Below are positions 5,289-22,325 of a DNA stretch of 37,849 bases, piece after piece (position 1 is the first letter of the stretch; every line of letters begins with the position of its first letter). A program made the translations under genes and the position numbers. Under the pieces are notes generated by a model. The model was not told the DNA's origin. It worked only from the letters and a program-made list of their open reading frames with translations, and did no database searches. This stretch comes from a virus: IMG/VR virus record IMGVR_UViG_3300017917_003541, positions 1 through 37,849 of that record; one strand, 5' to 3'.

Positions 5289-7276
5289 AATAATGTTAAA
5301 AATCCGTTTTTAGGTAATTGGTTTTCAAAATATTCTTTATTCACTATAATTTTTTTCTCTTCAATTAATTCTTGATTATATCTATCAAAAGCTATATAAT
5401 ATACTTTATAAGTTTTTTCAGGATTAAATGTTACTTGTCTAAACCAAGATAATTTATGAGTTACTTTTACTGTTTCATCAAACAACATTTTATCATCTTC
5501 ATAAACAGCTATTTCAATATCTCTATTATCAGTTGAATTAGCTATATTTAAAAATACAGCAAATTGATCAGGATAATCTTTAACAGCAAGTATTGAAAAA
5601 TATTCTACTCTTGAATAGTTTTTATGTTCAAAATTATTTTCAATCAAATTAACAAATGTTTCTTGATTTTCCCAATATATTTGATTTTTTGATTGTTGGA
5701 AAGTACAGTAGGTTAAGTTTTCTAAACCATTAGACTCACTTTCCCATTCAACCATTAATGAATCATATTCTTGAGCATTCTGAATTTGTGGGAAATGGTT
5801 TAAGTAAAATTTAGGGTCTGTAGCTAAGAAATAAGTTATAATTGTTTCTCCTTCTTGTTCTTCTTTTACCCCAACATATGCTTTTTTCTGGTTTAGGATT
5901 AAAGATATATCATCTATAAAAGTTGGATCTTTTAAAACATAATCATAATTTAAAAAATATACTTTTTTAATACCTAATTTTTCAGCTAAAGCTACTCCAT
6001 TATAATAATTTGTATAAACAGCAGGTCCATGATAAACATTATTATTTTCTCCTGTTAACCATAAATCAGCTTTCCAAGTACCATAATCAAACCAAGTATA
6101 ATTATAAAATGTATGTTTTGTTAAAATATTATTTTTATCATAAACACAATAATCAACTAATTTTTGTAATTCTAAAGGTATAGGTAAATGAGAGGTTAAT
6201 ATAATTTTTCTACCTGTTTGTTTTAAAGCCTCAATACATTCTATAGTAGTTTTTGTTATTGAATTTAATATTGGATAAGTTGATAAAATAAACGCTTCTT
6301 CTTCTATATTTATATAATCATCAGAGTTTAAACTTGACTCAATTAAATTTAAGTTATAACTAAAATCTGTAGTATCTAAGTAATTAACATTATAATCATC
6401 CCAATAATTTAAATACACAGGTAGATTATGAATTAAAATAGGTATTTGATATGAAACGGCCTCCCTAATTACTAAAGGCATTGTTTCTTTATCATTGTTT
6501 GTACCTCTAGAAGTAAATAAGAATAAATCCATTGCTTGATAAAAAGCATCTACATCTGTTCTTTCATTCCACCAAGTTAAATTATCAGGTTTATCATTCA
6601 TTAATGGTTCCCAATAATGTTTAAAATTGTCCGCTTGATTCCCTACACAGTGGAATTCATATTGGGGTAATGCTTTTGCATAAGCAAAAAATTCAGATTG
6701 GTTTTTACGAGGTGTAAATAACCCGATATGTAAAATATGTTTTTTATTAGGATCTAATCCTAATTTTTGTAACGCCTCTGTTCTATCAGGACGTTCAATG
6801 TATTCTATAGGATATTCAACTACTACTTTAGGAATGTCTATATCTTTATATTGATTTACTTGCCATTGAGATACAAACATAAATTTATCAGGAAAAAATT
6901 TCTTTTGAGTCACATCATAAGATGAATCATGAGATGTTTCTACAATTTTATATGTTCTATCCTGAGTATAAATTTGATTTGCAATATCAAAATCCATAAA
7001 GAATTCTGGTATTTCTTCTAAATGAATAATATCAGGTTTTACCTGATTAATAATATTAATAAGTTCTTGTTTGTTGTCTCCTAAAGTAAAAAACTTGTCT
7101 TTATCAACAAGCTTTACAATTTTATTGCGAGTAACTACTAATACACCTCCAGTACAATCTGACCATTCAACTAAATAAATCTCAAAATCATTTTTGAGTA
7201 ATTCTATTTTTTTAGTTAGATATTGAGGCAGCCCCCCTGTTGATAAATGGGGGGCTACATATAGCAGTTTTTCCAT
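5285..7276 (-). CDS. Multidomain GT4-type glycosyltransferase with extra C-terminal domains
   Basis: This is a 663-residue protein. Residues 1-345 are a GT4-like GT-B enzyme: YVAPHLSTGGLPQYL at the start, HIGLFTPRKNQSEFFAYAKA near 183, and a donor-site region FLFTSRGTNNDKETMPLVI followed by REAVSYQIPILI. Residues about 350-560 look like a second domain, beginning KIILTSHLPIPLELQKLVDY and containing VYFLNYDYVL, which could be a GT-A-like or accessory fold. I do not recognise it firmly. The last ~100 residues form a beta-sandwich (FAVFLNIANSTDNRDIEIAVY). It sits between the sulfotransferase (3-nt gap) and the smaller GT4 gene (4-nt overlap). A bifunctional polymer- or glycan-building enzyme is plausible. 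The sugar specificity is unknown. Confidence 0.82.
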   Translation of the reverse strand: MEKLLYVAPHLSTGGLPQYLTKKIELLKNDFEIYLVEWSDCTGGVLVVTRNKIVKLVDKDKFFTLGDNKQELINIINQVKPDIIHLEEIPEFFMDFDIANQIYTQDRTYKIVETSHDSSYDVTQKKFFPDKFMFVSQWQVNQYKDIDIPKVVVEYPIEYIERPDRTEALQKLGLDPNKKHILHIGLFTPRKNQSEFFAYAKALPQYEFHCVGNQADNFKHYWEPLMNDKPDNLTWWNERTDVDAFYQAMDLFLFTSRGTNNDKETMPLVIREAVSYQIPILIHNLPVYLNYWDDYNVNYLDTTDFSYNLNLIESSLNSDDYINIEEEAFILSTYPILNSITKTTIECIEALKQTGRKIILTSHLPIPLELQKLVDYCVYDKNNILTKHTFYNYTWFDYGTWKADLWLTGENNNVYHGPAVYTNYYNGVALAEKLGIKKVYFLNYDYVLKDPTFIDDISLILNQKKAYVGVKEEQEGETIITYFLATDPKFYLNHFPQIQNAQEYDSLMVEWESESNGLENLTYCTFQQSKNQIYWENQETFVNLIENNFEHKNYSRVEYFSILAVKDYPDQFAVFLNIANSTDNRDIEIAVYEDDKMLFDETVKVTHKLSWFRQVTFNPEKTYKVYYIAFDRYNQELIEEKKIIVNKEYFENQLPKNGFLTLL

Positions 7277-7279: not shown

Positions 7280-8098
7280 TTACTTTTTGTAGTTAAACTG
7301 TTCGTAAAACCATTTGTAATTGTTATAGATCCAATCTGTAACATCTCTACCTAATAAAGTCTTAGCTTTAGAAGGCATAGGTTCTAGTTTTGTTCTAATA
7401 ACATGATCTCCAAACACACCGTAAACAGTATCATCTTCTTTAGTTACTTGTTCAATATTATCAAAGTCATGACTGTAGTAAGGAATGTCTAAATAATTAT
7501 AAATTTTAGTCATTTCCCTATCTGGGTATAGACAAAGATCTTCAAACTTAACAAATAAAATTTTACTGTTAATTCCCATCCTAATAATTTCTCCTAATCT
7601 TTCAATAGCCATTCCTACTGGAGGATTTTGAGCCCAAACATCTACACGTTTAGGAACTGTTGTACCTTGCATTGTAGACCAATCTAAGATTGGAGATGTT
7701 TTATCTGAACTTTTACGGTAATTGTTTTCCATAGAGGCAAAAATATCTCTTAAGTCCCTAATCATACAAATGATTTTAGGTTCTGGATAAATTTGGTTTA
7801 AGAAATCATAATGGATTCCCCATCCTCTACTTTTATCAATTACATAAGGTTTATCAGTAATTGCTTCATAATAACCTTTCATTCCTTCTTTACAAAAAGC
7901 CATAAATCCTGTCTTCATTAGATCAGGATCTTGTGCTTGGAATTCAGGAGAATTAGTATAATTACCTCTAGCGGCAAATATTAATTCAAGTACTCCAGAA
8001 GTAGGAGTAGCATAAATATTTGGGTTTTGTGCTAAGATGTTTTGTAACAAAGTACTACCTGCTCTAGGCAAGGAAGATTGAAAAAACAATTTTTCCAT
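7280..8098 (-). CDS. PAPS-dependent sulfotransferase family protein
   Basis: This 272-residue protein would transfer sulfate from PAPS to an acceptor, most likely a glycan given its neighbours. The 5'-phosphosulfate loop is at the N-terminus (SSLPRAGSTLLQNIL, 8-22). The 3'-phosphate site is visible as IRDLRDIFASMENNYRKS (113-130), with the Arg and Ser spaced as in the family. VIDKSRGWG (86-94) is the usual segment between them, and ILFVKFEDLCLYPD further on is the typical late motif. Length fits a single-domain soluble sulfotransferase, and no membrane anchor is seen. It lies between a GT9-like gene and the large GT4 gene with gaps of three nt, so it belongs to the glycan cassette. Confidence 0.88.
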   Translation of the reverse strand: MEKLFFQSSLPRAGSTLLQNILAQNPNIYATPTSGVLELIFAARGNYTNSPEFQAQDPDLMKTGFMAFCKEGMKGYYEAITDKPYVIDKSRGWGIHYDFLNQIYPEPKIICMIRDLRDIFASMENNYRKSSDKTSPILDWSTMQGTTVPKRVDVWAQNPPVGMAIERLGEIIRMGINSKILFVKFEDLCLYPDREMTKIYNYLDIPYYSHDFDNIEQVTKEDDTVYGVFGDHVIRTKLEPMPSKAKTLLGRDVTDWIYNNYKWFYEQFNYKK

Positions 8099-8101
8099 AA
8101 C

Positions 8102-8977
8102 TTATTTTTGGTTTTTAATAGACTCAATAATTTGATCTACATTAAAGATTTCATCCTCATTATTATAAGGGAACTCTAACAAATCACCAGCAATATTAAA
8201 TTGTTGTAAGTATGAGTTTCTTAATTCAGGTTTAACTGTAAAAGGATTAGATACAATATTGTCATGCATACTATAACCAAATACTTCTGGCTTATTAGCA
8301 ATCCAACATACTGTTGAAGGCATATTCATAGCTGCTGCTGTATGTTGAGCAAAACTATCAATAAATAATCTTTTATTACTTAAAGAATTTAATACACATA
8401 AAGCTCTAAAAGTATCAGTTACTGGATAAGTGTAATCAAATCCAATTTGGTCTTCTCTTTTAATATGGATAATATTATAATCTTTTCTAAAAGCATCAAT
8501 TACTTTAATAGCTACAGATGATGGAATATCTCTTGCCCAAGAATACTTATGTTCTGTTTGACTACCACCATTTGTTTGTAACAACAAAATAGGCAAATCT
8601 GATTGGAAACGGTTTTCAAAGAATTTAATTTCTCGAGCTGTTAAATGAATTTTAGGCAACTCACCATTATATTCAACTCCAAACATTTCACACCAAGTTT
8701 TAATTAAGTGTTCGTTTTGTTTTAAGTGATTTGTTTCTAAATAAGGATCATGAGCAAACAACAATACATCTTTATCTTTTACAAACTCATCATAAAAATA
8801 ACTAAACCCACTAAAATTGTAAGTACGGTAAACATTAGGGTTATTTAAAAATACATCAGCATATCCTGATACTACAATCAGATTTGCTTTAGGGTATTGT
8901 TTGTGAATTGCTTCACAAACAGCTGTGGCCATGATGCATTTACCAATACCACCATTAATTTGAAAGATTATATTCAT
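8102..8977 (-). CDS. GT9-like (heptosyltransferase family) glycosyltransferase
   Basis: This 291-residue protein has the start of a GT9 enzyme: MNIIFQINGGIGKCIMATAV, equivalent to the glycine-rich acceptor loop of ADP-heptose:LPS heptosyltransferases. Later segments ILLLQTNGGSQ (about 155-165) and LFIDSFAQHTAAAMNMPSTV (about 203-222) correspond to the family's donor-domain strands and the D/S-x-x-x-H-x-A-A region. At 291 residues it is shorter than LPS heptosyltransferases (about 320-350). It is the first gene of the glycan cassette, and a second GT9-type gene (the TibC-like one) ends the cassette. The sugar it uses is not determined. Confidence 0.78.
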   Translation of the reverse strand: MNIIFQINGGIGKCIMATAVCEAIHKQYPKANLIVVSGYADVFLNNPNVYRTYNFSGFSYFYDEFVKDKDVLLFAHDPYLETNHLKQNEHLIKTWCEMFGVEYNGELPKIHLTAREIKFFENRFQSDLPILLLQTNGGSQTEHKYSWARDIPSSVAIKVIDAFRKDYNIIHIKREDQIGFDYTYPVTDTFRALCVLNSLSNKRLFIDSFAQHTAAAMNMPSTVCWIANKPEVFGYSMHDNIVSNPFTVKPELRNSYLQQFNIAGDLLEFPYNNEDEIFNVDQIIESIKNQK

Positions 8978-9018: not shown

Positions 9019-9345
9019 TTACAAAGATCCTGATGGAGGAACTGGGGCTAATACTTCATCAACCAAAGCCATAATTTCTAGGTTGTCTAAGTCTGCATAT
9101 TGTACTCTATATCCTTTTTCACCCTCAACTTTTGCTTGCCAGTCAGCAAACATATTATCAAAAATGTTGATAGCATGGTATTGTTTAGTACCAGTATAAC
9201 CTTCGGGACGATTGTCCCATACGTTATCAACTACAGGTTGTAACATAGTTAATTCAGATGCTTTTTTAGTAGCTCCGCTACCATCAGGTAAAATAACTTG
9301 AACATCTCCGAAACCAAAAATGTGTAATGTGCTAAATTCAGTCAT
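9019..9345 (-). CDS. Hypothetical 108-residue protein upstream of glycan cassette
   Basis: I do not recognise this family. The protein is small and acidic, with no signal peptide or membrane segment. It starts MTEFSTLHIFGFGDVQVILP and ends in a short Pro/Ser-rich tail (LAPVPPSGSL). The sequence is mixed alpha/beta, with several aromatic residues (NVWDNRPEGYTGTKQYH). It has its own late-type motif 15 nt before the ATG and lies 41 nt upstream of the GT9 gene. It may therefore lead the transcript that carries the glycan cassette. Confidence 0.75.
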   Translation of the reverse strand: MTEFSTLHIFGFGDVQVILPDGSGATKKASELTMLQPVVDNVWDNRPEGYTGTKQYHAINIFDNMFADWQAKVEGEKGYRVQYADLDNLEIMALVDEVLAPVPPSGSL

Positions 9346-9387: not shown

Positions 9388-10068
9388 TTAATTAACTATT
9401 ACATCAAAATACAAACCTGTAAATCCACCGTAAGAGGCAACATCTTCAGTTCCATAAACAGTAGAATCAAAAGTAGCACCTCCAGGACCCGCAGGAACTG
9501 TACCTCCAGTAACTTTAGTACTTCCATTTATAACAATATTAGTTGTACCTCCAGCAAAAGTAGGGTTAGCTCCAGAAACTGTTACTTTCCAATATCCTCT
9601 AAAAATAATAGGATTGGTTGTCATGCTTACAGCACTAGGTCCGTAAGTACCAGGGGCCATTGCCATACCACCACCATTTAAGTATTGATAAGAAAATGAA
9701 GAATCCCATAACTCAACATTTACGTTAACAGCATTATCTACTGGAGGAGGTGGAAATGGTGGGGGATTTGTTTTATTATTTGTTACATTTAAAGTTACCT
9801 GAAATGTAGAATTATCATAAAAATAAGTTAATCCTGAATAGTCTCCTATTTCATAATCTGATGTTTTGGCTGCTAGTCCATAAATTCTGTTTGCTCCTGA
9901 TCCTTCATGTACTCCCCAGTTATTGTCTGTTAGGGAATTTGATCCATTAGGACCAGCAAAATATGAGAAAAAACTCATAGTAAGTAAACTCAGTTGTCCC
10001 GAACTATAAGGAGAATTAGCTTCACTCCATATAGCAGACATACTAATATCAGAGGTAGGCAAAGTCAT
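9388..10068 (-). CDS. Gly-rich fibre-associated structural protein
   Basis: This 226-residue protein begins TLPTSDISMSAIWSE, resembling the N-terminal ISMSxI motif seen in many phage tail and fibre proteins. A proline hinge, PPPFPPPP (102-109), separates this part from a beta-rich C-terminal half full of Gly, Asn and Thr (GGTTNIVINGSTKVTGGT). No enzyme motif is visible. Its ATG shares one base with the stop of the giant fibre gene, indicating translational coupling and suggesting a partner or tip protein for that fibre. An alternative is an independent baseplate or tail protein. Confidence 0.72.
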   Translation of the reverse strand: MTLPTSDISMSAIWSEANSPYSSGQLSLLTMSFFSYFAGPNGSNSLTDNNWGVHEGSGANRIYGLAAKTSDYEIGDYSGLTYFYDNSTFQVTLNVTNNKTNPPPFPPPPVDNAVNVNVELWDSSFSYQYLNGGGMAMAPGTYGPSAVSMTTNPIIFRGYWKVTVSGANPTFAGGTTNIVINGSTKVTGGTVPAGPGGATFDSTVYGTEDVASYGGFTGLYFDVIVN

Positions 10069-13000
10069 TACTTGTTAATTTGTTTTTTTAACTCGTTTAA
10101 TTCTGTTGAAAGTTCTTTTATAGCCTCAATTAATAAAGCTGTTATTTTATCGTATTTAACCGCCTTATACCCATTGTCCCTAGTTACTACTAACTCGGGT
10201 GCAATTTTTTCAATTTCTTGAGCCATTACACCTATATCGTGTCCTTCATTTTCATGTATACCAGGCATTGGTATCCAATCAAATCCGTAACCACTAATTT
10301 GGTTAAGTTTTTCTAGTGAACCTGTTAACGGTTGTTTATTATTTTTTAATCTTTCGTCGGAAGAATAGAAAGCAATAACATCAGATGTTGCTCTAATTGT
10401 ACCACAAGCTTGTAAGTTGTTTACATAAGTGTAACAAGCAACTGTTGCTGTTAAGTTAGATCCTATTATAAATGAGTCAGAAGCACCACTACAAACTAAA
10501 TTGCTTTTTCCACCTAAAATTCCTGAGTATACAGAAGATACTGTGTTGCTTTTACCTCCACCTATAAATGAACAAAAACCTGAGACTGTGTTGCTTTGAC
10601 CACTACCTATAAATGAGCGACATCCTGAAACTGTGTTATTTGTACCACCAACAATAGCACCAGCATAAGCAGATACTGTGTTAACAGTTCCACCAGCAAT
10701 TGTTGCTTCTTGGGCTGAGATTGTGTTTTGATATCCTCCAGATATTGTGCTCCAACAATTTGATACTGTATGATTATATCCACCACCAATAAATGATGAT
10801 GCTCCTGTTGCTGCGTTAGTATATCCTCCAGAAACAGTTGAATAACTATTTGTAGCACAGTTTAATCTACCCCCGCCTACTGTTGAATAAACACCAGAGG
10901 TTGTGTTAGCACATCCTCCGCCTATAAATGAGCAGTTGCCTGAGGCTGTGTTGCCTAACCCACCACCAATTGTTGATAAAGTACCAGAGGCTGTGTTGCT
11001 TTTACCCCCTGATACTGTTGCTTGAGCAGCAGATGCTACATTTGAATATCCTGATACTGTTGATGTTGTTGAACCTGCTGTAATACTATTATTATATCCA
11101 CCAGGGATTGTTGCTAAGTAACCGCAGTTTACATTCTCGGCTCCACCACCTACTGTTCCAAAATCACAATATGCCTTACTACTTCTTCCTCCTGCTGCAG
11201 TTGAATATTCTCCGGAGGCTGTGTTATTCGCACCACCACCTACAAATGAGTGACCTCCTGAGGCGGTATTTACTCTACCACCACCAACAAATGAACAAGC
11301 ACCTGAAGCTGTATTAGCTATACCACCACCTAAAAATGCTCTACCTCCTGAAACTGTGTTTCCCTCACCTCCAACTAATGAAGCTCTAAGACCACTATTA
11401 GTATTGTTATATCCACCTGTTACAACAGCATCATAACTTGATGCTGTATTGAGTGCTCCTCCTCCAACAAAGGCACCAGCACATATAGCACAGTTGTTTT
11501 GACCACCTACTACAATAGCGTTTACTCTGTTGCCTCCAACACCACCAACTATGTTGGTATTTCCGCCTCCTATAAAACCATAATTAGCACAAACTTTGTT
11601 ATTATATCCACCACTTGCTGTAGAGTAAGCATTTGTAGTGCAGTTAGCTTGACCTCCACCTACTGTTGAACAAGCGCCTGAGGATATGTTGTTTCTACCT
11701 CCAGATACAACTGATGTATTACCACTTGCTGTGTTTATACATCCCCCACCAATAACAGCCATATATCCAGTACCACTATTGTTATATCCACCAGATACTG
11801 TTCCATAAGCTCCTCCTGCTCTGTTGTTTACACCACCAGATATTGTATCGCCTGTATTAGTAGCACAGTTATATGATCCTCCACCTATACTACCAAGTAC
11901 TCCAGATGATAAGTTAACATATCCACCTCCTACAAAAGAACAACAACCTGAAGCTGTGTTAATATATCCTCCACCTATAAATGAGTTAGTTCCTGAAGCT
12001 GTATTGGCTAAACCACCACCTACTCTGGAAGCACTACCACTAGCTGTATTAGTACATCCTCCTCCTATAGAAGCATGGTTAGAAGTAGCAGAGTTATTTT
12101 CACCACCAGATATTACGGAAGCATATGCTGCAGATGCTGTATTACCATATCCTCCTCCTATTGCGTTACCATAACAAGTAACGTTGTTTCCACAACCACC
12201 TGCTATAGTACCTGCTCTTCCAGGAACTGTGTTTCCACATCCACCACCTATTGTTGAATAAAGATTTGAAGCAACGTTTGATTGACCACCATTTACTACT
12301 GATCTATATCCAGAGGCTGTGTTTGATATACCACCACCTATAAACGAACCGTCATTTGATGATATATTAGATCGTCCTCCACTTAAGGTTGAATCTGTAC
12401 CAGAGGCTGTATTACATCTACCACCACCAATGAAAGCTAACCCAGCAGAAGCTGTATTATTTTCACCACCGGCAATTGTAGACATATAAGTACCACTTGC
12501 TGTGTTTCCTACTCCACCACCTATTGCCGCGTAGAATGTACTAGAGGCTGTATTACAAATACCTCCAGCAACTGTAGCCATACAACCTGTGGCTCTGTTA
12601 CAAACTCCACCACCTACTGTTGATCCAACTCCTAAAGCACAGTTTCTAAGTCCACCACCAATTGTTGATACTTGGCCTGCATTGTAGCAACATGTTGGGT
12701 TACTGCAAACATAACCATCAACACACCAATCACCACCTGCTGTGTTGTTAAATACACCTCCTCCGATAGTCGCACCTGCGGCACAAGCAGTTGCTACTGT
12801 TGAGCGTATCACATTAAATATACCACCACCAATTGTAGCATCACTAGATACGTTTTTGTTTAAGTATCCTCCGGAAATTGTTGAAGCATAACCAGCACAA
12901 ATAATATTACCATATCCACCACCAACAGCACCAGCGTATCCTGAAACTGTGTTGCTTCTACCTCCACTAATAGTTGATGCTTGACTTGAAACTGTATTAG

Positions 13001-16000
13001 ATCCACCACCACCTACTGTTGTGAATCCAGCAGAGGATGTATTAGCGCAACCACCGCCTACTGTTGATAAATAAGCAGAAGATGTATTATTCTTACCACC
13101 ATTGATAATGGAAAAATAATTACCAGAAGCTGTATTACTTGCTCCTCCTCCTATAAATCCATATCTACTAGTGTTTACATTTCCAGCACCACCGGTTGTT
13201 GTTCCAAATTCTTGGGTAGCACAGTTACATCTACCACCACCTACAATTGAACAAGCACCTGAGGCTAAGTTAGTATCTCCACCAGCTACTGTTGATATAG
13301 CCCCTGATGATATATTGAATAAACCTCCGGCTACTACAGAGTCAATACCTTGTGCTCTGTTTTGAAAACCACCTCCTATAAAAGAAAACTTACCAGCTAC
13401 ATAAAAAGTGGTTGGAGAAACAGTAAAATACCCTCCATCATTCCATGTTCCTCCAGATGAGTTGTTTCCAACACCACCGGCTATAGTTGCTCCCGCGGTA
13501 CAAGTACTATTTAAAACATCACATATTCTGTTACAACTACCTCCACCTATTGTTCCTGCGTTTGAATAGTTGTTATTACCATATCCACCACTTATTGTTG
13601 AGGCGTAAGCTGTAGCATTATTTGAAATACCACCCGCGATAGTTGAATATTGGGCAGATGCTGTGTTTCCTGTACCTCCTCCTACTGTTGATCTATTAAA
13701 GGAAGCAACGTTAGACGAACCACCACCCACTGTTGAACAGTTACCTGAGGATGTGTTACTTATACCACCACCTATAAATGAGTGGCAACCTGAGGCTGTG
13801 TTTGAAGTACCACCACCTATAAATGCTCTAGCAGCTGTAGAACTGTTATTAATACCTCCTACAACAGCCGCTTGAGCGCCATTAACATAGTTTTGGTAAC
13901 CACCTGAAATTGTTGAGTCACTAGAACATATAAGATTTTTAAACCCACCACCAATAATACTAGCGCTACCTGCTAAAACTCGGTTACATCCTCCACCTAC
14001 AACAACAGATAAACCAGAAACTGTTGTATTACAAAATCCACCTATTGTAGAAGAACAATATCCTGATACTGTGTTGCATCTACCACTACCTACAAATGAA
14101 GCAGTGCCTGAAGCTGTATTACTACCACCACCGGTAGCAACTGAACAGTTACCTGAGGCTGTGTTAAGACATCCACCACCTGCAAATGATGTTCTACCTG
14201 TAGATGTAACACTATATCCTCCAGATAATGTACTAACATCTCCTGAGGCTGTGTTACCAAGCCCACCACCTATTGTTGAATAATTAGATCCAACAGAACT
14301 ATTACCTTGACCTCCACCTACTACAGCTCCAACAGTTGAGGCTGTGTTATCATTACCACCACTAATAGTTGACCAAGCTCCAGAAGTTACATGACTTTCA
14401 CCACCGCCTATTGTTGAGCAAGCACCTGAGGCTATATTACTTATACCACCACCTAAAAATGAACTATTACCAGAGGCCGTATTATAACCTCCACTCATAG
14501 TTCCTGATGCGTTACCAGAGGCTATATTATTTCTACCTCCTAAAATAGCGGAAAAATACCCACATGCTGTGTTAGCGTAACCTGCACCTATTGTTATATA
14601 ATATCCACCACTAACTGTATTAGCTGCTCCTCCTAAAATAGAGTTTACTAAACTAGAGGCTGTGTTAGTATTACCACCAGCAATTGTGTTAAGATAACCT
14701 CCACAAATAAAGTTACTTACACCACCACCTATTGTGTTGTAACAAGTTCCACACGCTCTGTTTGTATCACCACCGGCAACTACAGACCATCTACTTATTG
14801 CTTGGTTTTTATTACCACCACCAATAGTTGTAAATTCACCAATTGATATATTTCCACACCCACCACCTATAACAGATGATGAACAATATATACAGTTACC
14901 TGTACCCCCGCCTATAAATGAATAGGCTCCACTATATATTCTACTACAATAACCTCCACTAATAGTTGAATAATCACCTATAACACAGTTATATTGACCA
15001 CCACTAATTGTACTAAATTGATTTCGGGCTTGGTTTCCACCTCCACCACCTACAAAGGTACCGGCAGCACAAGCTAAATTAACTCTACCACCAACTACAA
15101 TTGCTGAATCTGCAGAAGCTATATTACTATATCCACTACCAATAAATGATAAATAACCACTTGCTGTGTTAGTATCTCCTCCAACCACAGATGAATTGTT
15201 ACCTGAAGCTGTACTAGTTTTACCACCACTTACTGTTGAAAAAGCACCTGAGGCTGTGTTAGCATATCCACCACCAATTGTTGAACAACCACCTGAGGCT
15301 AAATTTCCACAACCTCCATTTATAGTTGACATATTAGAGGTAGCACAGTTTTGATATCCTCCAGAAACAGTAGAAGTAAAACCACAAGCGCGGTTTTGAT
15401 AACCACCACCTACAGTTGAAAAACATCCTAAAGCTTGTCCTGCATATCCTCCACTAACAGTACCATAAGGTCCATTAGCGTATCCATTTAAACCACCTGC
15501 TACTACAGATGTATAACCAGAGGCTGTTGAGTTTCTACCACTAGCTACAGACCATCCTCCACTAGCGACTGTATTACATCCTCCACCTACAAATGAAAAA
15601 CCACCTGAGGCTGTGTTTCCACAACCACCACCAATTGTTGAGCAAGCTCCTGAGGCTGTGTTAGTATGCCCACCACTTATTGTTGATCGTGTTCCGGAAG
15701 CTGTATTGACTTGGCCTCCACTTATTGATGAACCATAAGTACCACTTGCTGTATTGTTAGTACCCCCACCTATAAAAGCAAAAGCACCTATTGATTTATT
15801 ATTATATCCTCCAGAAACTGTTGAATAGGTAGTTGTAGCACAGTTTGCTATACCACCCCCTACAGCGGAGTATGTGCCTGAGGCTGTATTAACTTTACCA
15901 CCTGCTACTACAGAACAAGCACCAGAAGCTGTATTACTTATGCCTCCTGCTAAAGAGTTTTGAGCAAAGCAAAAATACATTAAATTAGTACTTTGTACTA

Positions 16001-19000
16001 ATAATGAACTTGAAGCATAAACCGCATATCCTGGTTGATAATTGAATGTTGTACCACTTATACCTGCTGTACCGTTAATAGATACACCTGAAGATCCTGC
16101 TGAACCTGAAGTACCACTTGTACCTGATGGAGCTGAGAAACCAGCAGCACCCGCTATACCTGAAGTACCTGAAGTACCTGAAGTACCTGCTGTATTTGAG
16201 GCACCTGATGTACCTGCCGCACCTGTAGTTCCGTTTGATCCTGCTGAACCTGCAGAACCTGAAGTATTAGATGAACCACTTGTACCTGCTGCTCCTGTTG
16301 TACCACTTGATCCGTTTGAACCTGAAGTGCCACTTGTTTGACTTGAACCTGAAGTACCTGCTGCTCCTGTTGTTCCGTTAGAACCACTAGAACCTGAAGT
16401 ACCTGATGTATTTGATATACCACTTGCTCCTGCTAGTCCTGAGGTACCTGTAGTACCTGAAGAACCCGCAGAACCACTTGATCCACTTGTGTTTGAAGCA
16501 CCTGATGTACCTGCTGCTCCTGTTGTTCCGTTAGAACCAGCAGAACCACTTGAACCTGAAGTGTTTGAAGCACCTGATGTACCTGCGGCGCCTGTTGTTC
16601 CGTTTGATCCTGAACTACCTGAAGTTCCTGAAGTTGCTGAAACACCTGAACCTCCGTCTACACCTGAAGTTCCTGTAGAACCAGATGAACCTGAAGAACC
16701 AGATGAACCACTTGTTTGACTTGAACCTGAAGTACCTATAGCTCCTGTAGTACCATTTGAACCCGATGATCCTGATGAACCACTTGTTTGACTAGCACCT
16801 GAAGTACCAGCTGCACCTGTAGTACCTTGTGAACCACTAGATCCACTAGAACCACTTGAATTACTTGCACCTGAAGTACCTGCTGCTCCACCTGTTCCAT
16901 TAGAACCTGCTGAACCTGAAGTACCAGAGGTTGCACTTTGGGCTGAGAAACCAGCTGCACCTGCTATACCTGAAGTTCCTGAAGAACCACTTGTACCTGA
17001 TGTATTACTTGATCCTGAAGTTCCAGCTGCACCTGTTGTTCCATTTGAACCAGATGAACCACTAGAACCACTTGAATTAGAAGCTCCTGAAGTACCAGCT
17101 GCTCCTGTTGTTCCATTAGAACCAGCTGAGCCACTTGAACCACTTGTATTAGAGGCACCTGAAGTACCTGCATCTCCAGTAGTACCTTGTGATCCTGCTG
17201 AACCACTAGTACCTGAAGTGTTTGAATTGCCTGATGTACCAGCAGCACCAGTAGTTCCATTAGAACCACTTGAACCACTTGTACCTGAAGTATTTGAGAT
17301 ACCACTTGCACCTGCTAAACCTGAGGTACCTGTTGTACCTGAGGAACCAGCTGTACCAGAAGTACCTGAAGTATTGCTTGAACCTGAAGTTCCAGCATCA
17401 CCTGTTGTACCTTGTGATCCTGCTGAACCACTTGTACCTGAAGTGTTTGAGTTACCTGAAGTACCAGCGTTACCTGTTGTACCTTGAGAACCACTTGATC
17501 CACTAGAACCACTTGTTTGACTAGCTCCAGAAGTACCAGCAGCTCCTGTGCTACCATTTGAACCACTTGATCCTGAAGTACCTGAAGTAGCTGAAACACC
17601 TGAACCTCCGTCTACACCTGAAGTACCAGTTGAACCTGAAGAACCACTAGAACCTGAGGTACCAGAAGTACCTGCGTTGCCTGATGTTCCTGAAGAACCT
17701 GAAGCTCCTGAAGTACCACTTGTTTGTGATAAACCACTAGTACCTGTTGAACCACTTGATCCACTTGTACCTGAAGTACTTGATTGACCTGAGTTACCTG
17801 CGTTTCCTGTAGTACCATTAGAACCACTAGAACCACTTGTACCAGAAGTATTAGAAGCACCTGATGTACCTGCATCACCTGTTGTACCAAATGAACCTGC
17901 AGAACCTGATGAACCACTTGTATTAGATGATCCAGATGTACCAGCGTCTCCTGTAGTACCTTGAGAACCACTAGAACCACTTGAACCACTTGTTTGACTT
18001 AATCCTGAGGTACCAGCAGCACCTGTACTACCTTGAGAACCAGAACTACCTGATGAACCACTTGTTTGGCTTAAACCTGAAGTACCAGCTGCTCCTCCTG
18101 TCCCATTAGAACCTGAAGAACCGCTTGTACCTGAGGTAGCACTTTGAGCAGAAAAACCAGCTGCACCTGCTATACCTGATGTACCTGAACTACCACTAGT
18201 TCCTGAAGTGTTTGAAGTACCGCTTGTACCATCAACACCTGAAGTACCAGATGAACCTGTTGAACCTGAAGAACCTGAAGTACCAGCAGTAGCTGCTGTA
18301 CCTGAAGCGCCTGATGTTCCTGAAGTACCATTAGTACCACTTGTTTGGCTTAAACCACTTGTACCTGTAGTACCTGAACTACCTGAAGTACCTGATGTAG
18401 AACTTTGTCCACTATTACCTGCATTACCGGTTGTTCCATTTGAACCACCTGATCCTGAGGTACCAGATGTATTTGAATTACCAGAAGTACCAGCGTCACC
18501 TGTTGTACCAAATGAACCTGCAGAGCCAGAAGAACCACTTGTTCCACTAGTTCCTGAAGTACCATCTGCTCCACTTGAACCTGAAGAACCAGTAGAACCA
18601 CTTAAACCTGAAGTACCAGATGAACCTGTAGTACCACTAGTTTGGCTTAAACCTGAAGTACCTGTTGTACCTGAAGAACCAGAAGTTCCTGAGGTACCTG
18701 ATTGACCTGAGTTTCCATCATTACCATTTGTACCTGAAGTTCCTGAAGAACCTGTTGATCCACTTGAACCTGAAGATCCACTTGAACCGGATACTCCATT
18801 AAAACCATTTAGACCTGAAGTACCAGATGAACCTGTACTACCTGAAGTGCCTGATGTATTAGATTGGCCTGAGTTTCCAGCGTTACCATTTGAACCTGAA
18901 CTACCACTTGAACCTGAAGTTCCACTTGTATCCGCTGTTCCTGAAGAACCAGCTGAACCTGAAGTACCTGTTGTACCACTTGTTTGACTTAATCCTGAGG

Positions 19001-19595
19001 TACCTGCTGTACCTGATGAGCCTGAAGTACCTGAAGTACTAGATTGGCCTGAGTTACCACCATTACCTGATGAACCATTTGATCCACTTGAACCTGAAGA
19101 ACCAGCTGTTCCTGAAGAACCAGATGAACCACTTGTACCAGAAGTACCACTTGTACCTCCACTAGTACCTGAAGTACCTTCTATACCGCTTGTACCAAAT
19201 GAACCTGTTGAACCTGAACTACCACTTGTTCCTGAAGAACCTGCTGTAGTTGAAGTACCACTAGTACCAGCTGTTGATCCTGAAGTACCTGAAGAACCAT
19301 TTATACCTGAGGTACCATTTGAACCTGATAAACCACTAGAACCTGAAGTACCTGAAGATCCTGATGTTCCTGAAGTACCACTTGTACCAGAAGTACCTGT
19401 TGTACCACTCCCACCATTTCCGCTTAAAACTAAAGATACAACACCATCATCATTGATGGTTAAAACATAACCTTCCCATCCTTCAGTGACAATTGGTAAA
19501 TTAAATTTATTAAAAGCTAATGATCTATCAAAAAAACCTTTACCTTGGTTTGGGTTGTCTAAACGATTATTACCTCTGTATCTGTTTTCAGCCAT
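10068..19595 (-). CDS. Giant collagen-like/YadA-like fibre protein with S74 chaperone
   Basis: This is one uninterrupted 3175-codon frame. Residues 1-57 form a unique head (MAENRYRGNNRLDN) that probably attaches to the virion. Residues ~58-1172 are collagen-like Gly-X-Y triplets dominated by GTS and GSS. A bridge (residues 1173-1210) leads to about 120 tandem 15-residue repeats of the NTASGxxSTIGGGxx type (~1211-3055), resembling the left-handed beta-roll of YadA/Hep_Hag heads. The last 98 residues are a peptidase S74 intramolecular chaperone: SDERLKNN near 3079, then GHDIGVMAQEIEKIAPELV and a C-terminal coiled coil. S74 domains trimerise the fibre and cut themselves off before the conserved Ser. 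It is likely a very long trimeric host-binding fibre. Codons are synonymously diverse, so the repeats are kept by selection on protein. Cysteines are unusually common in the repeats. Confidence 0.92.
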   Translation of the reverse strand: MAENRYRGNNRLDNPNQGKGFFDRSLAFNKFNLPIVTEGWEGYVLTINDDGVVSLVLSGNGGSGTTGTSGTSGTSGTSGSSGTSGSSGLSGSNGTSGINGSSGTSGSTAGTSGTSTTAGSSGTSGSSGSTGSFGTSGIEGTSGTSGGTSGTSGTSGSSGSSGTAGSSGSSGSNGSSGNGGNSGQSSTSGTSGSSGTAGTSGLSQTSGTTGTSGSAGSSGTADTSGTSGSSGSSGSNGNAGNSGQSNTSGTSGSTGSSGTSGLNGFNGVSGSSGSSGSSGSTGSSGTSGTNGNDGNSGQSGTSGTSGSSGTTGTSGLSQTSGTTGSSGTSGLSGSTGSSGSSGADGTSGTSGTSGSSGSAGSFGTTGDAGTSGNSNTSGTSGSGGSNGTTGNAGNSGQSSTSGTSGSSGTTGTSGLSQTSGTNGTSGTSGASGTAATAGTSGSSGSTGSSGTSGVDGTSGTSNTSGTSGSSGTSGIAGAAGFSAQSATSGTSGSSGSNGTGGAAGTSGLSQTSGSSGSSGSQGSTGAAGTSGLSQTSGSSGSSGSQGTTGDAGTSGSSNTSGSSGSAGSFGTTGDAGTSGASNTSGTSGSSGSNGTTGNAGNSGQSSTSGTSGSSGSTGTSGLSQTSGTSGASGSSGTSGNAGTSGTSGSSGSSGSTGTSGVDGGSGVSATSGTSGSSGSNGSTGAAGTSGASQTSGSSGSSGSQGTTGNAGTSGNSNTSGTSGSAGSQGTTGDAGTSGSSNTSGTSGTAGSSGTTGTSGLAGASGISNTSGTSGSSGSNGTTGAAGTSGNSNTSGTSGSAGSQGTTGDAGTSGASNTSGSSGSAGSNGTTGAAGTSGASNSSGSSGSSGSNGTTGAAGTSGSSNTSGTSGSSGTSGIAGAAGFSAQSATSGTSGSAGSNGTGGAAGTSGASNSSGSSGSSGSQGTTGAAGTSGASQTSGSSGSSGSNGTTGAIGTSGSSQTSGSSGSSGSSGSTGTSGVDGGSGVSATSGTSGSSGSNGTTGAAGTSGASNTSGSSGSAGSNGTTGAAGTSGASNTSGSSGSAGSSGTTGTSGLAGASGISNTSGTSGSSGSNGTTGAAGTSGSSQTSGTSGSNGSSGTTGAAGTSGSSNTSGSAGSAGSNGTTGAAGTSGASNTAGTSGTSGTSGIAGAAGFSAPSGTSGTSGSAGSSGVSINGTAGISGTTFNYQPGYAVYASSSLLVQSTNLMYFCFAQNSLAGGISNTASGACSVVAGGKVNTASGTYSAVGGGIANCATTTYSTVSGGYNNKSIGAFAFIGGGTNNTASGTYGSSISGGQVNTASGTRSTISGGHTNTASGACSTIGGGCGNTASGGFSFVGGGCNTVASGGWSVASGRNSTASGYTSVVAGGLNGYANGPYGTVSGGYAGQALGCFSTVGGGYQNRACGFTSTVSGGYQNCATSNMSTINGGCGNLASGGCSTIGGGYANTASGAFSTVSGGKTSTASGNNSSVVGGDTNTASGYLSFIGSGYSNIASADSAIVVGGRVNLACAAGTFVGGGGGNQARNQFSTISGGQYNCVIGDYSTISGGYCSRIYSGAYSFIGGGTGNCIYCSSSVIGGGCGNISIGEFTTIGGGNKNQAISRWSVVAGGDTNRACGTCYNTIGGGVSNFICGGYLNTIAGGNTNTASSLVNSILGGAANTVSGGYYITIGAGYANTACGYFSAILGGRNNIASGNASGTMSGGYNTASGNSSFLGGGISNIASGACSTIGGGESHVTSGAWSTISGGNDNTASTVGAVVGGGQGNSSVGSNYSTIGGGLGNTASGDVSTLSGGYSVTSTGRTSFAGGGCLNTASGNCSVATGGGSNTASGTASFVGSGRCNTVSGYCSSTIGGFCNTTVSGLSVVVGGGCNRVLAGSASIIGGGFKNLICSSDSTISGGYQNYVNGAQAAVVGGINNSSTAARAFIGGGTSNTASGCHSFIGGGISNTSSGNCSTVGGGSSNVASFNRSTVGGGTGNTASAQYSTIAGGISNNATAYASTISGGYGNNNYSNAGTIGGGSCNRICDVLNSTCTAGATIAGGVGNNSSGGTWNDGGYFTVSPTTFYVAGKFSFIGGGFQNRAQGIDSVVAGGLFNISSGAISTVAGGDTNLASGACSIVGGGRCNCATQEFGTTTGGAGNVNTSRYGFIGGGASNTASGNYFSIINGGKNNTSSAYLSTVGGGCANTSSAGFTTVGGGGSNTVSSQASTISGGRSNTVSGYAGAVGGGYGNIICAGYASTISGGYLNKNVSSDATIGGGIFNVIRSTVATACAAGATIGGGVFNNTAGGDWCVDGYVCSNPTCCYNAGQVSTIGGGLRNCALGVGSTVGGGVCNRATGCMATVAGGICNTASSTFYAAIGGGVGNTASGTYMSTIAGGENNTASAGLAFIGGGRCNTASGTDSTLSGGRSNISSNDGSFIGGGISNTASGYRSVVNGGQSNVASNLYSTIGGGCGNTVPGRAGTIAGGCGNNVTCYGNAIGGGYGNTASAAYASVISGGENNSATSNHASIGGGCTNTASGSASRVGGGLANTASGTNSFIGGGYINTASGCCSFVGGGYVNLSSGVLGSIGGGSYNCATNTGDTISGGVNNRAGGAYGTVSGGYNNSGTGYMAVIGGGCINTASGNTSVVSGGRNNISSGACSTVGGGQANCTTNAYSTASGGYNNKVCANYGFIGGGNTNIVGGVGGNRVNAIVVGGQNNCAICAGAFVGGGALNTASSYDAVVTGGYNNTNSGLRASLVGGEGNTVSGGRAFLGGGIANTASGACSFVGGGRVNTASGGHSFVGGGANNTASGEYSTAAGGRSSKAYCDFGTVGGGAENVNCGYLATIPGGYNNSITAGSTTSTVSGYSNVASAAQATVSGGKSNTASGTLSTIGGGLGNTASGNCSFIGGGCANTTSGVYSTVGGGRLNCATNSYSTVSGGYTNAATGASSFIGGGYNHTVSNCWSTISGGYQNTISAQEATIAGGTVNTVSAYAGAIVGGTNNTVSGCRSFIGSGQSNTVSGFCSFIGGGKSNTVSSVYSGILGGKSNLVCSGASDSFIIGSNLTATVACYTYVNNLQACGTIRATSDVIAFYSSDERLKNNKQPLTGSLEKLNQISGYGFDWIPMPGIHENEGHDIGVMAQEIEKIAPELVVTRDNGYKAVKYDKITALLIEAIKELSTELNELKKQINK
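10430..15965 (-). repeat. About 120 tandem 45-bp units encoding YadA-head-like repeats
   Basis: Within the giant fibre gene the translation shows a 15-residue period (45 bp), typically N-T-A-S-G-x-x-S-x-I-x-G-G-G-x. Units differ strongly in third codon positions but keep the Asn/Gly/Ser frame. The repeats resemble YadA/Hep_Hag head units that stack into a beta-roll. The unit count is an estimate from length divided by period. Confidence 0.88.
16080..19425 (-). repeat. Collagen-like Gly-X-Y coding repeat
   Basis: About 1100 residues of Gly-X-Y triplets, mainly Gly-Thr-Ser and Gly-Ser-Ser, are encoded by 9-bp periodic DNA. Longer blocks recur within it, for example GIAGAAGFSA at about 16130, 16945 and 18160, and VDGGSGVSATSG at about 16640 and 17600. 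The copies differ at synonymous sites. Confidence 0.9.
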
Positions 19596-19643: not shown

Positions 19644-20516
19644 TTAATTAGTACTTTGAGGAGTTGTTGGAGGAATAGTTGTTTCGGTTGAAATGAATAT
19701 TTGAGTCTTATTAGAAAATTTCTGTAAAGCTGTAATATCTTTTTGTAATACCTCTGGAATTATATATCCATTGATTTTTATATTAAAAGTACTTCTAACT
19801 ATACGTTCATCATTATTTGATAATTCTGTTTGAAAACCAAAAGAATCAATCATTGCTTTAAACTGATAACGTTGAGGATTACCCCAATAAGCATCAGAAG
19901 CATATTCCATTGATTCTACTATTTTATTTAATTGTTCTACATAGTAAGTAAACACAACACACTCATAAGTAACAGTTAAATAATCAGGCATAATCACAGC
20001 ATAATATTCTTTTTGTGGGATCCTGTTATTTAATACTTTAAAGTTATCATAAGCATTTTGTGGACTATAACGTTTAGTAAACACACCAAAGTTGTTAGGG
20101 TTATTAGCATCTAACTTGTTAGCTATCTGTCTATTTTTGTCTATATTGGTACGTTTAAACATAATCAACGGAGCTTGTATTTTACCAAGTTGGTCCCTAT
20201 AATACCCATCCTTTTGAAATGATTTCCATTTTTCTTGAGAACCATAAACCACAGGAACAGGTAATCTTTGTCCGTTTTGTATTACAGAAGGTTGAATTAT
20301 ATTTTCAAAATAATAAAAAATTGCTTCATCTATATCTTGAATACCAACACTAAATGGTTTTGTAGTATCACCTTTAAATGTTGTATTTAATGCTCTGTTG
20401 TTAGTTGGGGTTGGGTTAAAATCATTAGGATTACCTGCTTGAGGATAAGTAGGTATATGCTGCTCTTTTGAAAGCTGCTTTTGAGTTTTTGGTATTGGTT
20501 TTCTAACTTGAGACAT
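19644..20516 (-). CDS. gp15: Probable tail sheath terminator/stabiliser (gp15-like)
   Basis: This 290-residue protein has a Pro/Gln-rich N-terminal extension (~1-50) and then a domain starting near DIDEAIFYYFENIIQP. It contains VPVVYGSQEKWKS and IQAPLIMFKRT, which parallel the 'VPI-x-YAS' and following strand of T4 gp15, the protein that caps the tail and joins it to the neck. The central part (YYAVIMPDYLTVTYECVVFT) and the RYQFKAMIDSF segment also suit this family. It directly follows the gp14-like gene (one shared base) in the order 13-14-15. Similarity is judged by eye, so the assignment is probable rather than certain. Confidence 0.7.
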   Translation of the reverse strand: MSQVRKPIPKTQKQLSKEQHIPTYPQAGNPNDFNPTPTNNRALNTTFKGDTTKPFSVGIQDIDEAIFYYFENIIQPSVIQNGQRLPVPVVYGSQEKWKSFQKDGYYRDQLGKIQAPLIMFKRTNIDKNRQIANKLDANNPNNFGVFTKRYSPQNAYDNFKVLNNRIPQKEYYAVIMPDYLTVTYECVVFTYYVEQLNKIVESMEYASDAYWGNPQRYQFKAMIDSFGFQTELSNNDERIVRSTFNIKINGYIIPEVLQKDITALQKFSNKTQIFISTETTIPPTTPQSTN

Positions 20517-21101: not shown

Positions 21102-22325
21102 TTATCCTATAAAAATTGTCATTGGAACTTGATTAATTTCTTGTACTCTAGCTGCTGATTCTGCTGCTCTTCTTTCAAGTAATGCTTGACGAGAAGTTTG
21201 ATCAAAATATTCTCTTAATCGAGCTATTAAAGCTTCTTTTTCAGCCGCAGAAGCAGTTACTAAGTTATCACCATTTAAAGTTACTTCAGCTCCTGGAATA
21301 GGAATTTGGGAATATTTATTTCTTACTAATCCTAATACTTCTTTTGCTTTAGCTAATGTATATTCAAAAATCCAACTTCTACCTATTGAGTTTATGTTAG
21401 AATAAATAGGATTAACATAAGGTACATTTGAAGTATTTACAATTTTATTAGTACCATCAGCAGTTACAGCATTTAATCTATCTTGTATTTTAATAAAATC
21501 AAATACTAAATATTGGCCATAATATAAATCACCTCCCCCATCAAAATCATCACCTGTTAAACCAGTTCCAGGAACAGGAAACACAGAAATAATATTATTT
21601 ACAATATTAAATGAATAATTTGAAAGTGTTACTGTGTTTTGCATTTCAATTGCTTGAATGTTTTGCATAGTAAAACTTGTAGGCATCATTAAGTAATTAG
21701 CATAACCATATCCTGTACCATAAACACCAGCTGGAGGGACACCACCTAAACCACCTTGTCCTGCTAATAAAGTAGGAGAATATAATTGGTTAATTGCTGG
21801 TGGTGGCTGGTACCAAACGTTTTTAATTTCAATACCACCTATAATACCTTCATCTTCAGCCCATTTAGCTAAATCATAAGATTGAACACCAGGAGTTAAA
21901 GATAATCTACCTTTGAACCAAGTTACATTACCACCTGCTCCTGCTTCCTCACCATATTGTTGAGATAATCTAACAATAGTAGCCATTGTAGGAGTAAACA
22001 CAGAATTGTTTACATCAATTCTATCTGAAACTCCTTCTAAAGATAAGTAATTATCTCGTGTTTGGAAAGCATATAATTCGTTTCCATAAATAGTTGTTGC
22101 CTCTTCAAATCCTGCCCAAAAGTTAATATCTTGTAATTCAACGTTTTCAATAGGATAACCTAAACGTAAAGCACAAAAGTTAGCTACTTTGTTAGCGTCT
22201 GTTTGAAAATCTAAATCATTATCATAAAATCCAAATGGAGTTGGAGGTGGCCAAACACCATTAGCGTATGATGCTGAAACTTGAGCAAATGAGGATGAAC
22301 CAGGCCAAATAGGAATGTTAGACAT
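21102..22325 (-). CDS. gp13: Neck protein (gp13-like)
   Basis: This 407-residue protein is the first of three consecutive neck/tail completion genes. The N-terminal region includes FYDNDLDFQTDANKVANFCA and LGYPIENVELQDINFWAGFE, an alpha-helical pattern usual in T4-like head-completion proteins. The middle (about 150-270) is beta-rich with Gly/Pro loops. The C-terminus is a long helix (KEALIARLREYFDQTSRQAL) ending in VPMTIFIG. T4 gp13 is 309 residues, so this version is longer, mainly in the central loops. The call depends on its place between the capsid region and gp14/gp15-like genes. Confidence 0.68.
   Translation of the reverse strand: MSNIPIWPGSSSFAQVSASYANGVWPPPTPFGFYDNDLDFQTDANKVANFCALRLGYPIENVELQDINFWAGFEEATTIYGNELYAFQTRDNYLSLEGVSDRIDVNNSVFTPTMATIVRLSQQYGEEAGAGGNVTWFKGRLSLTPGVQSYDLAKWAEDEGIIGGIEIKNVWYQPPPAINQLYSPTLLAGQGGLGGVPPAGVYGTGYGYANYLMMPTSFTMQNIQAIEMQNTVTLSNYSFNIVNNIISVFPVPGTGLTGDDFDGGGDLYYGQYLVFDFIKIQDRLNAVTADGTNKIVNTSNVPYVNPIYSNINSIGRSWIFEYTLAKAKEVLGLVRNKYSQIPIPGAEVTLNGDNLVTASAAEKEALIARLREYFDQTSRQALLERRAAESAARVQEINQVPMTIFIG

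Follow-up and report, generated by a model that had tools for sequence, protein, structure and literature searches.

We analysed a 37,849-nt stretch of DNA (the window) from a virus of aquatic bacteria. The fibre gene, whose 3175-residue frame had been reported in a preliminary description and is real, is placed between genes for a T4 gp15-like tail terminator and a tail sheath and is followed by three glycosyltransferase genes (Table 1). In the ORF reading, the plus strand across the fibre gene is packed with stops. The predicted model of the tail terminator matched the T4 neck complex (9mkb, E 8e-8) and gp15 (4huh) in Foldseek. The neck protein encoded at 20516–21100 had no match among PDB sequences, and PADLOC gave no match for two proteins without an assigned function. 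The adjoining glycosyltransferase and sulfotransferase genes, the swapping of fibre tips and the site beside the tail-terminator gene lay outside the preliminary description.

Table 1. Features of the fibre locus, with positions in the window
Feature	Position	Strand	Basis or remark
Tail sheath	76..1833	minus	phrog_23, E 6.8e-77
TibC/Aah-type protein O-heptosyltransferase homologue, 401 aa (trio member C)	3155..4360	minus	TIGR04414
Glycosyltransferase, GT4-like, 315 aa (trio member B)	4341..5288	minus	PF13524, E 4.5e-6; conserved
Glycosyltransferase, GT4-type, 663 aa (trio member A)	5285..7276	minus	PF00534, E 1.1e-11
Sulfotransferase (Sulfotransfer_3), accessory	7280..8098	minus	PF13469, E 1.3e-18
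291-aa protein (phrog_8954)	8102..8977	minus	Beside sulfotransferase, as in L155 and L166
108-aa ORF	9019..9345	minus	
226-aa protein	9388..10068	minus	Starts on fibre stop codon; homologue after most relatives' fibres
Fibre gene	10068..19595	minus	Single 3175-aa frame, ATG start
S74 intramolecular chaperone region, C-terminal	10071..10478	minus	PF13884; PDB 6f45, 8jov
Tip, ~120 UspA1/YadA-head-type 15-residue repeats, Cys-rich	10551..15953	minus	3PR7 match, composition
Shaft-to-tip junction	15954..16079	minus	Between Gly-X-Y and repeats
Gly-X-Y shaft, residues 61–1172	16080..19415	minus	Pro-free, GTS/GSS-rich, N/Q for Gly about every 24 residues
Fibre N-cap, residues 1–60	19416..19595	minus	Conserved; probable virion attachment
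T4 gp15-like tail terminator	19644..20516	minus	Foldseek on predicted model; adjoins fibre gene
Head-tail adaptor / head completion protein	21102..22325	minus	phrog_211, E 2.2e-8

Modules of the fibre

Among 15 related loci, 14 share the N-cap at 78–99% identity (44% over 41 residues in the other, L016); it had no match in INPHARED. It would serve as a trimer anchor on the neck or tail. The fibre gene directly follows the gp15-like tail-terminator gene in 14/14 close relatives, as might be expected of a neck or head fibre (whisker, fibritin-like) instead of a baseplate tail fibre, a reading to which we give a substantial but less than even chance; T4-like fibre islands often adjoin neck genes (PMC7029224, in the part available), so position alone does not decide between neck and baseplate.

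The shaft (Pfam Collagen PF01391 on the fibre, E 1.5e-101) comprises 371 triplet positions, with 328 triplets in runs of at least four. GTS (87) and GSS (68) account for 155 of these 328, and X and Y are chiefly T, S, A, N and Q. No Pro, Lys or Arg occurs at X or Y of the shaft triplets, and the shaft is not a Pro/Hyp-rich collagen. The ~1100 residues of Gly-X-Y described earlier are present but interrupted: residues 147–1172 form 342 triplets in one register, of which 302 keep Gly and 40 replace it (18 N, 10 Q, 8 A, 3 S, 1 D), with successive substitutions exactly 24 residues apart in 22 of 39 cases.

The absence of Pro, Lys and Arg and the periodic loss of Gly are unfavourable for a bare triple helix. 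Both features would suit a disordered or polyglycine-II-like mucin-type spacer, which we regard as possible but somewhat doubtful. Set against such a spacer are the strict register across 342 triplets, the S74 and roll modules downstream, which are trimeric in known relatives, and the relatives that switch to Pro-containing Gly-X-Y along with a hydroxylase (below). We prefer a collagen-like, probably trimeric, shaft. A Gly-X-Y stalk between non-collagenous domains is also found in the EPclA prophage fibres of E. coli O157:H7; relative to the available part of that account (PMC3368898), the present fibre differs in being Pro-free and very long, in adjoining glycosyltransferase genes and in its caps and tips.

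Collagen-like stretches of this kind had been called unusual in a phage. Rarity is ruled out, because the cap with a GTS/GSS shaft behind it recurs in 13 close relatives, shaft length in related fibres extends to at least 980 triplets (L027–L029), and the bare GTS-tract pattern occurs in at least 120 viral stretches.

The roll occupies residues ~1215–3011, a length that, divided by 15, gives the ~120 units counted previously. Over 401 residues it matches the UspA1 head (3PR7, E 2.9e-18); in Pfam, the fibre gave only Collagen and Peptidase_S74 and no match to YadA_head. A tblastn search of the roll against INPHARED phages found no match, a weak negative because the low-complexity filter was on. 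The monomer model of the roll is all-strand, at low confidence (pLDDT 50, pTM 0.34). The head repeat is thus shared with the UspA1/YadA trimeric autotransporters, but here ~120 Cys-rich copies lie in a phage fibre with no autotransporter anchor seen. Peptidase_S74 (PF13884) matches at residues 3078–3135 (E 1.4e-13, 51.4 bits, cut-off 22), and the fibre translation contains the motif SSDERLK, which we take to mark S74 cleavage. A PF13884 C-terminus is an ordinary feature of S74 chaperone fibres (6f45, 8jov); the difference here lies in the exchange of S74 types between siblings. The earlier assignment of collagen-like, YadA-like and S74 modules is upheld by these three matches.

Whole tips are also exchanged between relatives. 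DNA similarity to the sibling contig L002 stops near position 16201, and the tips of L002 and L009 have almost nothing ahead of S74. A possible link between the sulfotransferase and roll tips has few cases: the gene is found in only five loci, three with a counted roll, and six roll loci, several of them truncated, are without it.

The window derives from an uncultivated contig with 57 tandem-repeat entries, mostly within the fibre gene, as an assembly artefact might produce. Such an artefact is nevertheless very improbable: the longest exact direct repeat is 35 nt, no 51-mer is repeated, the same architecture appears in independent contigs, and L002 aligns collinearly with the window at 88% identity across the shaft and the genes beside it. 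The short exact repeats and the collinear sibling make both chance and assembly collapse poor explanations.

Taken as an extended triple helix, the shaft would measure ~318 nm and the roll ~56 nm, calculated with textbook values for the rise per residue, against ~115 nm for the tail as estimated from a 765-aa tape-measure candidate of L002. On that premise the fibre would be longer than the tail, as had been proposed.

The TibC-type enzyme

Trio member C scores 302.9 bits against the TibC equivalog model (NCBIfam TIGR04414, cut-off 200) and 46.1 bits against the LPS heptosyltransferase model RfaQ, and it matches the TibC structure 4RAP with E 4.8e-54. The catalytic Asp of TibC, D110, aligns with D116, and the iron-finger Cys339, Cys342, Cys358 and Cys370 align with C351, C354, C368 and C380. 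These five residues are invariant in 11 homologues and in 7 diverse ones. According to the available part of PMC4358343, TibC D110A is inactive and all four Cys are required; the enzyme is active in E. coli and adds heptose to Ser, not Thr, of an autotransporter adhesin. The phage gene resembles the TibC/Aah (BAHT) system in these residues, in its above-cut-off score and in lying beside a gene for a long repeated surface protein. It differs in being phage-encoded together with two GT4 genes and in its likely substrate, the Gly-X-Y shaft. Counting against glycosylation of the shaft, no autotransporter was identified in the window, and ADP-heptose kinase and epimerase families were absent from the records of seven relatives, which leaves a donor supplied by the host or a different sugar.

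The three glycosyltransferases might instead alter host LPS or capsule against other phages, their adjacency to the fibre reflecting a shared host-recognition island. Similar pelagimyophage islands, with glycosyltransferases among tail-fibre genes, have been read in this way, O-chain modification being inferred there (PMC7029224, in the part available), and the GT4 families and GT9 also include LPS enzymes. We consider this rather unlikely in view of the far higher TibC/Aah than RfaQ score and the pairing of TibC-type enzymes and GTS/GSS Gly-X-Y genes both in bacteria and in phages that are unrelated.

Co-occurrence of enzymes and shaft types

The association of enzyme and shaft recurs in samples anchored on different features; near-identical entries were removed before some of the counts. 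Of the 31 linker-anchored loci L018–L048 (from the best 80 of 132 matches, some of them duplicates), 30 have the trio after the shaft gene; the remaining contig, L030, ends first. The sheath-anchored sample is blind to the fibre (best 80 of 593 and of 596 matches; 78 of 113 loci, with less than 5 kb upstream, dropped). There the trio accompanies 4/5 Ser/Thr shafts versus 3/30 others (p 0.003; Fisher p values here and below assume independent loci, an assumption that does not hold), and the fifth Ser/Thr-shaft locus, L282, carries a fused TibC homologue between two GTS genes. With TibC as anchor (best 80 of 587 matches; 38 of 80 with less than 5 kb upstream dropped), 29 of 33 evaluable phage clusters contain a Ser/Thr Gly-X-Y gene, which in some lies downstream and convergent. 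Among the tract-anchored matches listed, TibC is present in 22/80 records versus 0/43 controls (p 3e-5), and in 18 of the 38 listed records of at least 40 kb. No TibC was seen in the other 58 of the 80 listed, so GTS shafts exist without TibC, although many of these contigs are fragments. Some loci have the trio and no visible shaft: the contigs of L106 and L316 stop within the fibre or close to it, and L225 shows none for no evident reason.

The pairing extends beyond close relatives. Microcystis phage Mel-JY01, an isolate, has a TibC homologue with 203 Gly-X-Y triplets upstream, and a 735-kb phage has one with 44 triplets adjacent. The genomes of Methylobacter luteus and Methylomicrobium each contain a single GT[S/A]-type tract, at most 1 kb away from the TibC gene.

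Relatives with Pro-containing shafts have a 2OG-Fe(II) hydroxylase in place of, or alongside, the TibC-type enzyme. In the sheath-anchored sample the hydroxylase is present with 4/4 Pro-containing shafts versus 2/31 others (p 0.0003); a hydroxylase-anchored sample was also drawn (best 80 of 487 matches; 11 of 36 clusters, with less than 4 kb upstream, dropped). Tree-corrected comparisons, which have low power, gave three pairs for, none against and one tie for Pro shaft and hydroxylase (p 0.25), and three for, none against and eight ties for Ser/Thr shaft and trio (p 0.25).

The sugars could also be destined for the tip or another virion protein, with shaft and enzymes simply co-inherited. The known TibC substrate is a repeated adhesin passenger (PMC4358343, in the part available), which the beta-roll may resemble more closely than collagen does, and TibC-type genes also stand beside Pro-rich, Ser/Thr-poor shafts. 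On the other hand, the trio stays while tips change wholly, even where the tip is nearly empty (L002, L009), and in bacteria TibC adjoins a short protein that has a GTS tract but no roll; we judge a tip target unlikely.

Proposed modification of the shaft

Read from the sequence, the gene probably encodes a long modular collagen-like virion fibre of a T4-superfamily myovirus, glycosylated by the adjoining enzymes. The Pro-free shaft would act as a long spacer and the exchangeable tip, here of UspA1/YadA type, would contact the host, the S74 domain serving tip trimerisation and then, as predicted, probably being cut off. Among the enzymes encoded after the fibre, the TibC-type protein would attach the first O-linked sugar to serines of the shaft and the two GT4 enzymes would lengthen the chains; in this phage the sulfotransferase may add sulfate. 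Proline and hydroxyproline are the usual stabilisers of collagen. The sugars might stiffen or hydrate a shaft that has neither, or mask it.

More broadly, we see an even chance that aquatic tailed phages carry giant collagen fibres together with their own shaft-matched enzymes, TibC-type and GT4 where a Ser/Thr shaft is Pro-free, 2OG-Fe(II) prolyl-hydroxylase-like where the shaft contains Pro. Bacillus BclA and the mimivirus collagens are likewise collagen-like and have glycosylation or hydroxylation dedicated to them, but in the available part of PMC8968730 they are spore or giant-virus proteins and not tailed-phage fibres with TibC-type enzymes. Among the open-access papers listed, we found none that connects phage collagen fibres with TibC-type enzymes or prolyl hydroxylases, and no description of (Gly-Thr/Ser-Ser)n tracts as a TibC-family substrate.

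If enzymes and shafts are matched in this way, (Gly-Thr/Ser-Ser)n tracts of both phages and bacteria would be recognised by the TibC family, adding a new substrate to those of a known group of enzymes. Glycosylation would then offer a bacterial-type route to stable Pro-free collagen, and it would explain the abundance of glycosyltransferases in fibre-rich phage islands, where the available part of PMC7029224 reads them as LPS modifiers.

The fibre gene and its modules

The 3175-residue open frame placed at 10068-19595 by the preliminary description is real, with the amendment that it lies on the minus strand. The collagen-like, YadA-like and S74 modules proposed for it are all found in its product, which is most likely a modular fibre. 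By triplet count, the shaft contains 87 GTS and 68 GSS and no Pro. From residue 147, 342 triplets keep a single unbroken register in which Gly is substituted 40 times, mostly by Asn or Gln (window 16080-19155); 22 of the 39 spacings between replacements are exactly 24 residues. The substituted triplets read xTS, recurring about every 24 residues, and perhaps serve as evenly spaced flexible hinges or as marks for recognition. Cys is absent from the shaft and occurs 73 times in the 1871 residues examined of the repeat (beta-roll) region, a Cys-rich roll unusual for an extracellular phage fibre. The UspA1 head is matched by 401 residues of this region (E 2.9e-18); Pfam YadA_head has no match in the fibre protein.

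The longest exact repeat in the gene is 35 nt and no 51-mer recurs, so its collapse during short-read assembly is unlikely. With textbook per-residue rises, the extended shaft would measure ~318 nm versus a tail of ~115 nm, the latter judged from a 765-aa tape-measure candidate in the sibling contig called on size and position only, which upholds the suggestion that the fibre would outreach the tail.

The window, an IMG/VR fragment, comes from a T4-superfamily myovirus whose genes run in the order terminase, portal, protease, capsid, PhoH, adaptor, fibre, sheath; the capsid protein and its counterpart in Flavobacterium phage immuto share 54% identity. The model of the protein encoded just before the fibre, of modest confidence (pLDDT 58), best matches T4 gp15, the tail terminator. 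The sulfotransferase lies with a phrog_8954 protein at 7280-8977, as in two related loci (L155:5233-8209, L166:6480-9443) that also hold ORFs resembling, by eye, APS kinase and nucleotidyltransferase; these hint at a supply of PAPS and at sulfated glycans on the virion.

Features of the fibre locus and of related loci
Feature	Location	Details
Fibre N-cap	start of fibre protein	60 residues
Gly-X-Y shaft	residues 61-1172	328 triplets in runs of at least 4
Cys-rich repeat region	up to ~residue 3011; window 10551-15953	composition
S74 domain	C-terminal, after repeat region	domain search
gp15-like tail terminator	window 19644-20516	gene preceding fibre; structural match of model to T4 gp15
Fibre-to-sheath genes		226-aa and 108-aa proteins, 291-aa unknown, sulfotransferase, two GT4-type glycosyltransferases, GT9-family enzyme, two more unknowns
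2OG-Fe(II) oxygenase (PF13640, PKHD-like)	L117:4306-4899; L125:3902-4516; L129:3074-3673; L053:11584-12168	beside Pro-containing fibres
Bacterial (GTS)n/(GSS)n proteins	L366:6959-7840; L367:6977-7840; L369:9217-9918; L374:3730-4128; L377:9231-9638; L379:3596-3934	beside TibC homologues

Close relatives and the fibre tip

The cap query retrieved 15 viral loci, 14 with common upstream neck genes. A GTS/GSS shaft follows the cap in 13 of the 15; L013 ends just past the cap and L016 is remote. S74 comes almost immediately after the shaft in L002 (the sibling contig) and L009, the tips of L007, L008 and L011 are of another roll type, and the L003 tip lacks S74. Between 27436 and 16201, the latter close to where the shaft ends, L002 DNA runs collinear with the window at 88% identity, and from 7277 the two are again 90% identical; none of the 30 longest matches listed falls between 16201 and 7277. 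L002 still encodes a homologue (72-75% identical) of the 226-aa protein. Cap and shaft are thus retained, whereas the tip is exchanged, as are accessory genes, the sulfotransferase among them.

With the linker as query, the best 80 of 132 hits were kept and the first 31 inspected (L018-L048). The two GT4-type enzymes and the GT9-family enzyme (the trio) lie behind the shaft in 30; the L030 contig stops before that point. Another locus, L049, encodes two distinct GTS-shaft fibres nearby in one phage (3380-10540, 11991-13955).

Shaft composition and neighbouring enzymes

The GT9-family protein (window 3155-4360) scores 302.9 bits against NCBIfam TIGR04414 (TibC/Aah O-heptosyltransferase; cut-off 200) and, compared by sequence with TibC, whose structure is solved, gives E 4.8e-54. 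In TibC the catalytic residue is D110 and the iron finger comprises Cys 339, 342, 358 and 370 (PMC4358343); aligned with these in the window protein are D116, C351, C354, C368 and C380, invariant across 11 homologues and across 7 homologues. TibC, as described in PMC4358343, transfers heptose from ADP-heptose onto adhesin serines, not threonines; no heptose-kinase or epimerase families were found in the records of seven relatives. At E 0.01 no PHROG matches the window homologue, and PHROG-only phage annotation will therefore miss it.

Sheath anchors, blind to the fibre (two scans; best 80 of 593 and of 596), yielded 113 loci, of which 35 extend 5 kb or more upstream. With a shaft threshold of at least 30 triplets, the trio accompanies 4/5 Ser/Thr shafts versus 3/30 others (p 0.003, loci treated as independent). 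In the fifth Ser/Thr locus, L282, a fused TibC homologue sits between the two GTS genes; the three others with a trio are L098 (20 GTS triplets visible), L106 (contig stops inside the tip) and L117 (Pro-rich shaft). TibC anchoring (best 80 of 587 matches; 42 evaluable loci in 33 clusters) found Ser/Thr Gly-X-Y in 29 clusters, Pro-containing Gly-X-Y in three and none in one. Anchoring on GTS DNA tracts, every one in frame, showed 80 records out of at least 120 viral stretches: TIGR04414 is present in 22 and missing from 58, versus 0/43 control records from weaker linker/S74 matches (p 3e-5). The mean length of the control records is lower; restricted to records of at least 40 kb, the counts are 18/38 versus 0/8 (p 0.015).

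All four sheath-anchored Pro-containing shafts (L117, L125, L129, L269) have an oxygenase gene, versus 2/31 others (p 0.0003, loci treated as independent). The enzyme is PF13640, its nearest PDB entries being PKHD-type and prolyl 4-hydroxylases. Oxygenase anchoring (best 80 of 487 matches) gave 36 clusters; of the 25 that extend 4 kb or more upstream, 21 contain a Gly-X-Y gene with 20 or more triplets, and Pro is present in 20 of these 21. Adjoining the Pro-rich fibres of L125 and L129 are 786-791-aa proteins (L125:1538-3898, L129:694-3069) that combine a GT4 with a GT25 domain, weakly match 2OG-Fe(II) oxygenases (E 0.002-0.004) and are reminiscent of mimivirus collagen-modifying enzymes. GIQGLQ-type collagen-like fibres poor in Pro, Ser and Thr (L171:32-1534, 1559-6586) have neither enzyme set.

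Across the 79 representatives in a sheath tree, with counts biased by the mixing of anchors, TibC accompanies 31 of 32 Ser/Thr shafts (oxygenase 0), and oxygenase 15 of 16 Pro shafts and both loci with both shaft types; the 29 without a shaft include 10 with TibC and 7 with oxygenase. Phylogenetically independent pairs, though few, are concordant with the association: three for, none against and one tie for Pro shaft and oxygenase (p 0.25), while the pairing of Ser/Thr shaft with trio gives three, none and eight (p 0.25).

Distant homologues and a proposed mechanism

The window protein detects a TibC homologue in 4 of 50,697 INPHARED records. In Microcystis phage Mel-JY01, 203 GTS-type triplets lie upstream of the TibC part, and 44 adjoin the homologue in a 735-kb phage present in two copies; a 636-kb phage has none within 43 kb. 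In Mel-JY01 (L289:2-3052, 4750-8430) the homologue sits inside a gene annotated 'methyltransferase FkbM', and the 203-triplet frame is annotated solely at its 3' end. Among 55 TibC loci in genome_contigs, L364, L365 and L381 bear phage genes; a GTS/GSS protein lies nearby in 8/14 (L366-L379; L370 looks phage-like) and in 0/38 of the remainder. Several of these proteins have apparent signal or lipoprotein starts. In whole-genome scans of nine genomes, the sole GT[S/A] tract of Methylobacter luteus and Methylomicrobium RS1 is the one beside TibC, Methylobacter BlB1 carries another, longer tract away from TibC, and Paraburkholderia BCC1884 has a long tract ~223 kb from TibC, apparently on the same contig; four have none and one a GTG tract alone.

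We propose that the cap would be fixed near the neck or tail, the shaft would act as a long spacer, the exchangeable tip would bind the receptor, and S74 would help the fibre trimerise. Sugars would be started on shaft serines by the TibC-type enzyme, lengthened by the GT4 enzymes and decorated by the sulfotransferase. Since the shaft lacks Pro, sugars may stabilise it in place of hydroxyproline; the hydroxylase of Pro-shaft relatives fits this idea.

Collagen-like phage fibres have been described (PMC3368898), and pelagimyophage islands combine YadA and collagen domains with glycosyltransferases interpreted as LPS modifiers (PMC7029224). One review covers modified collagens of Bacillus and mimivirus and terms phage collagens short (PMC8968730). 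We found no paper in the open-access literature linking TibC-type enzymes to Gly-X-Y fibres. We see about an even chance that aquatic tailed phages bring collagen-modifying enzymes matched to the shaft, TibC-type and GT4 for Pro-free and 2OG-Fe(II) for Pro-containing shafts, with a TibC family recognising (Gly-Thr/Ser-Ser)n in phages and bacteria.
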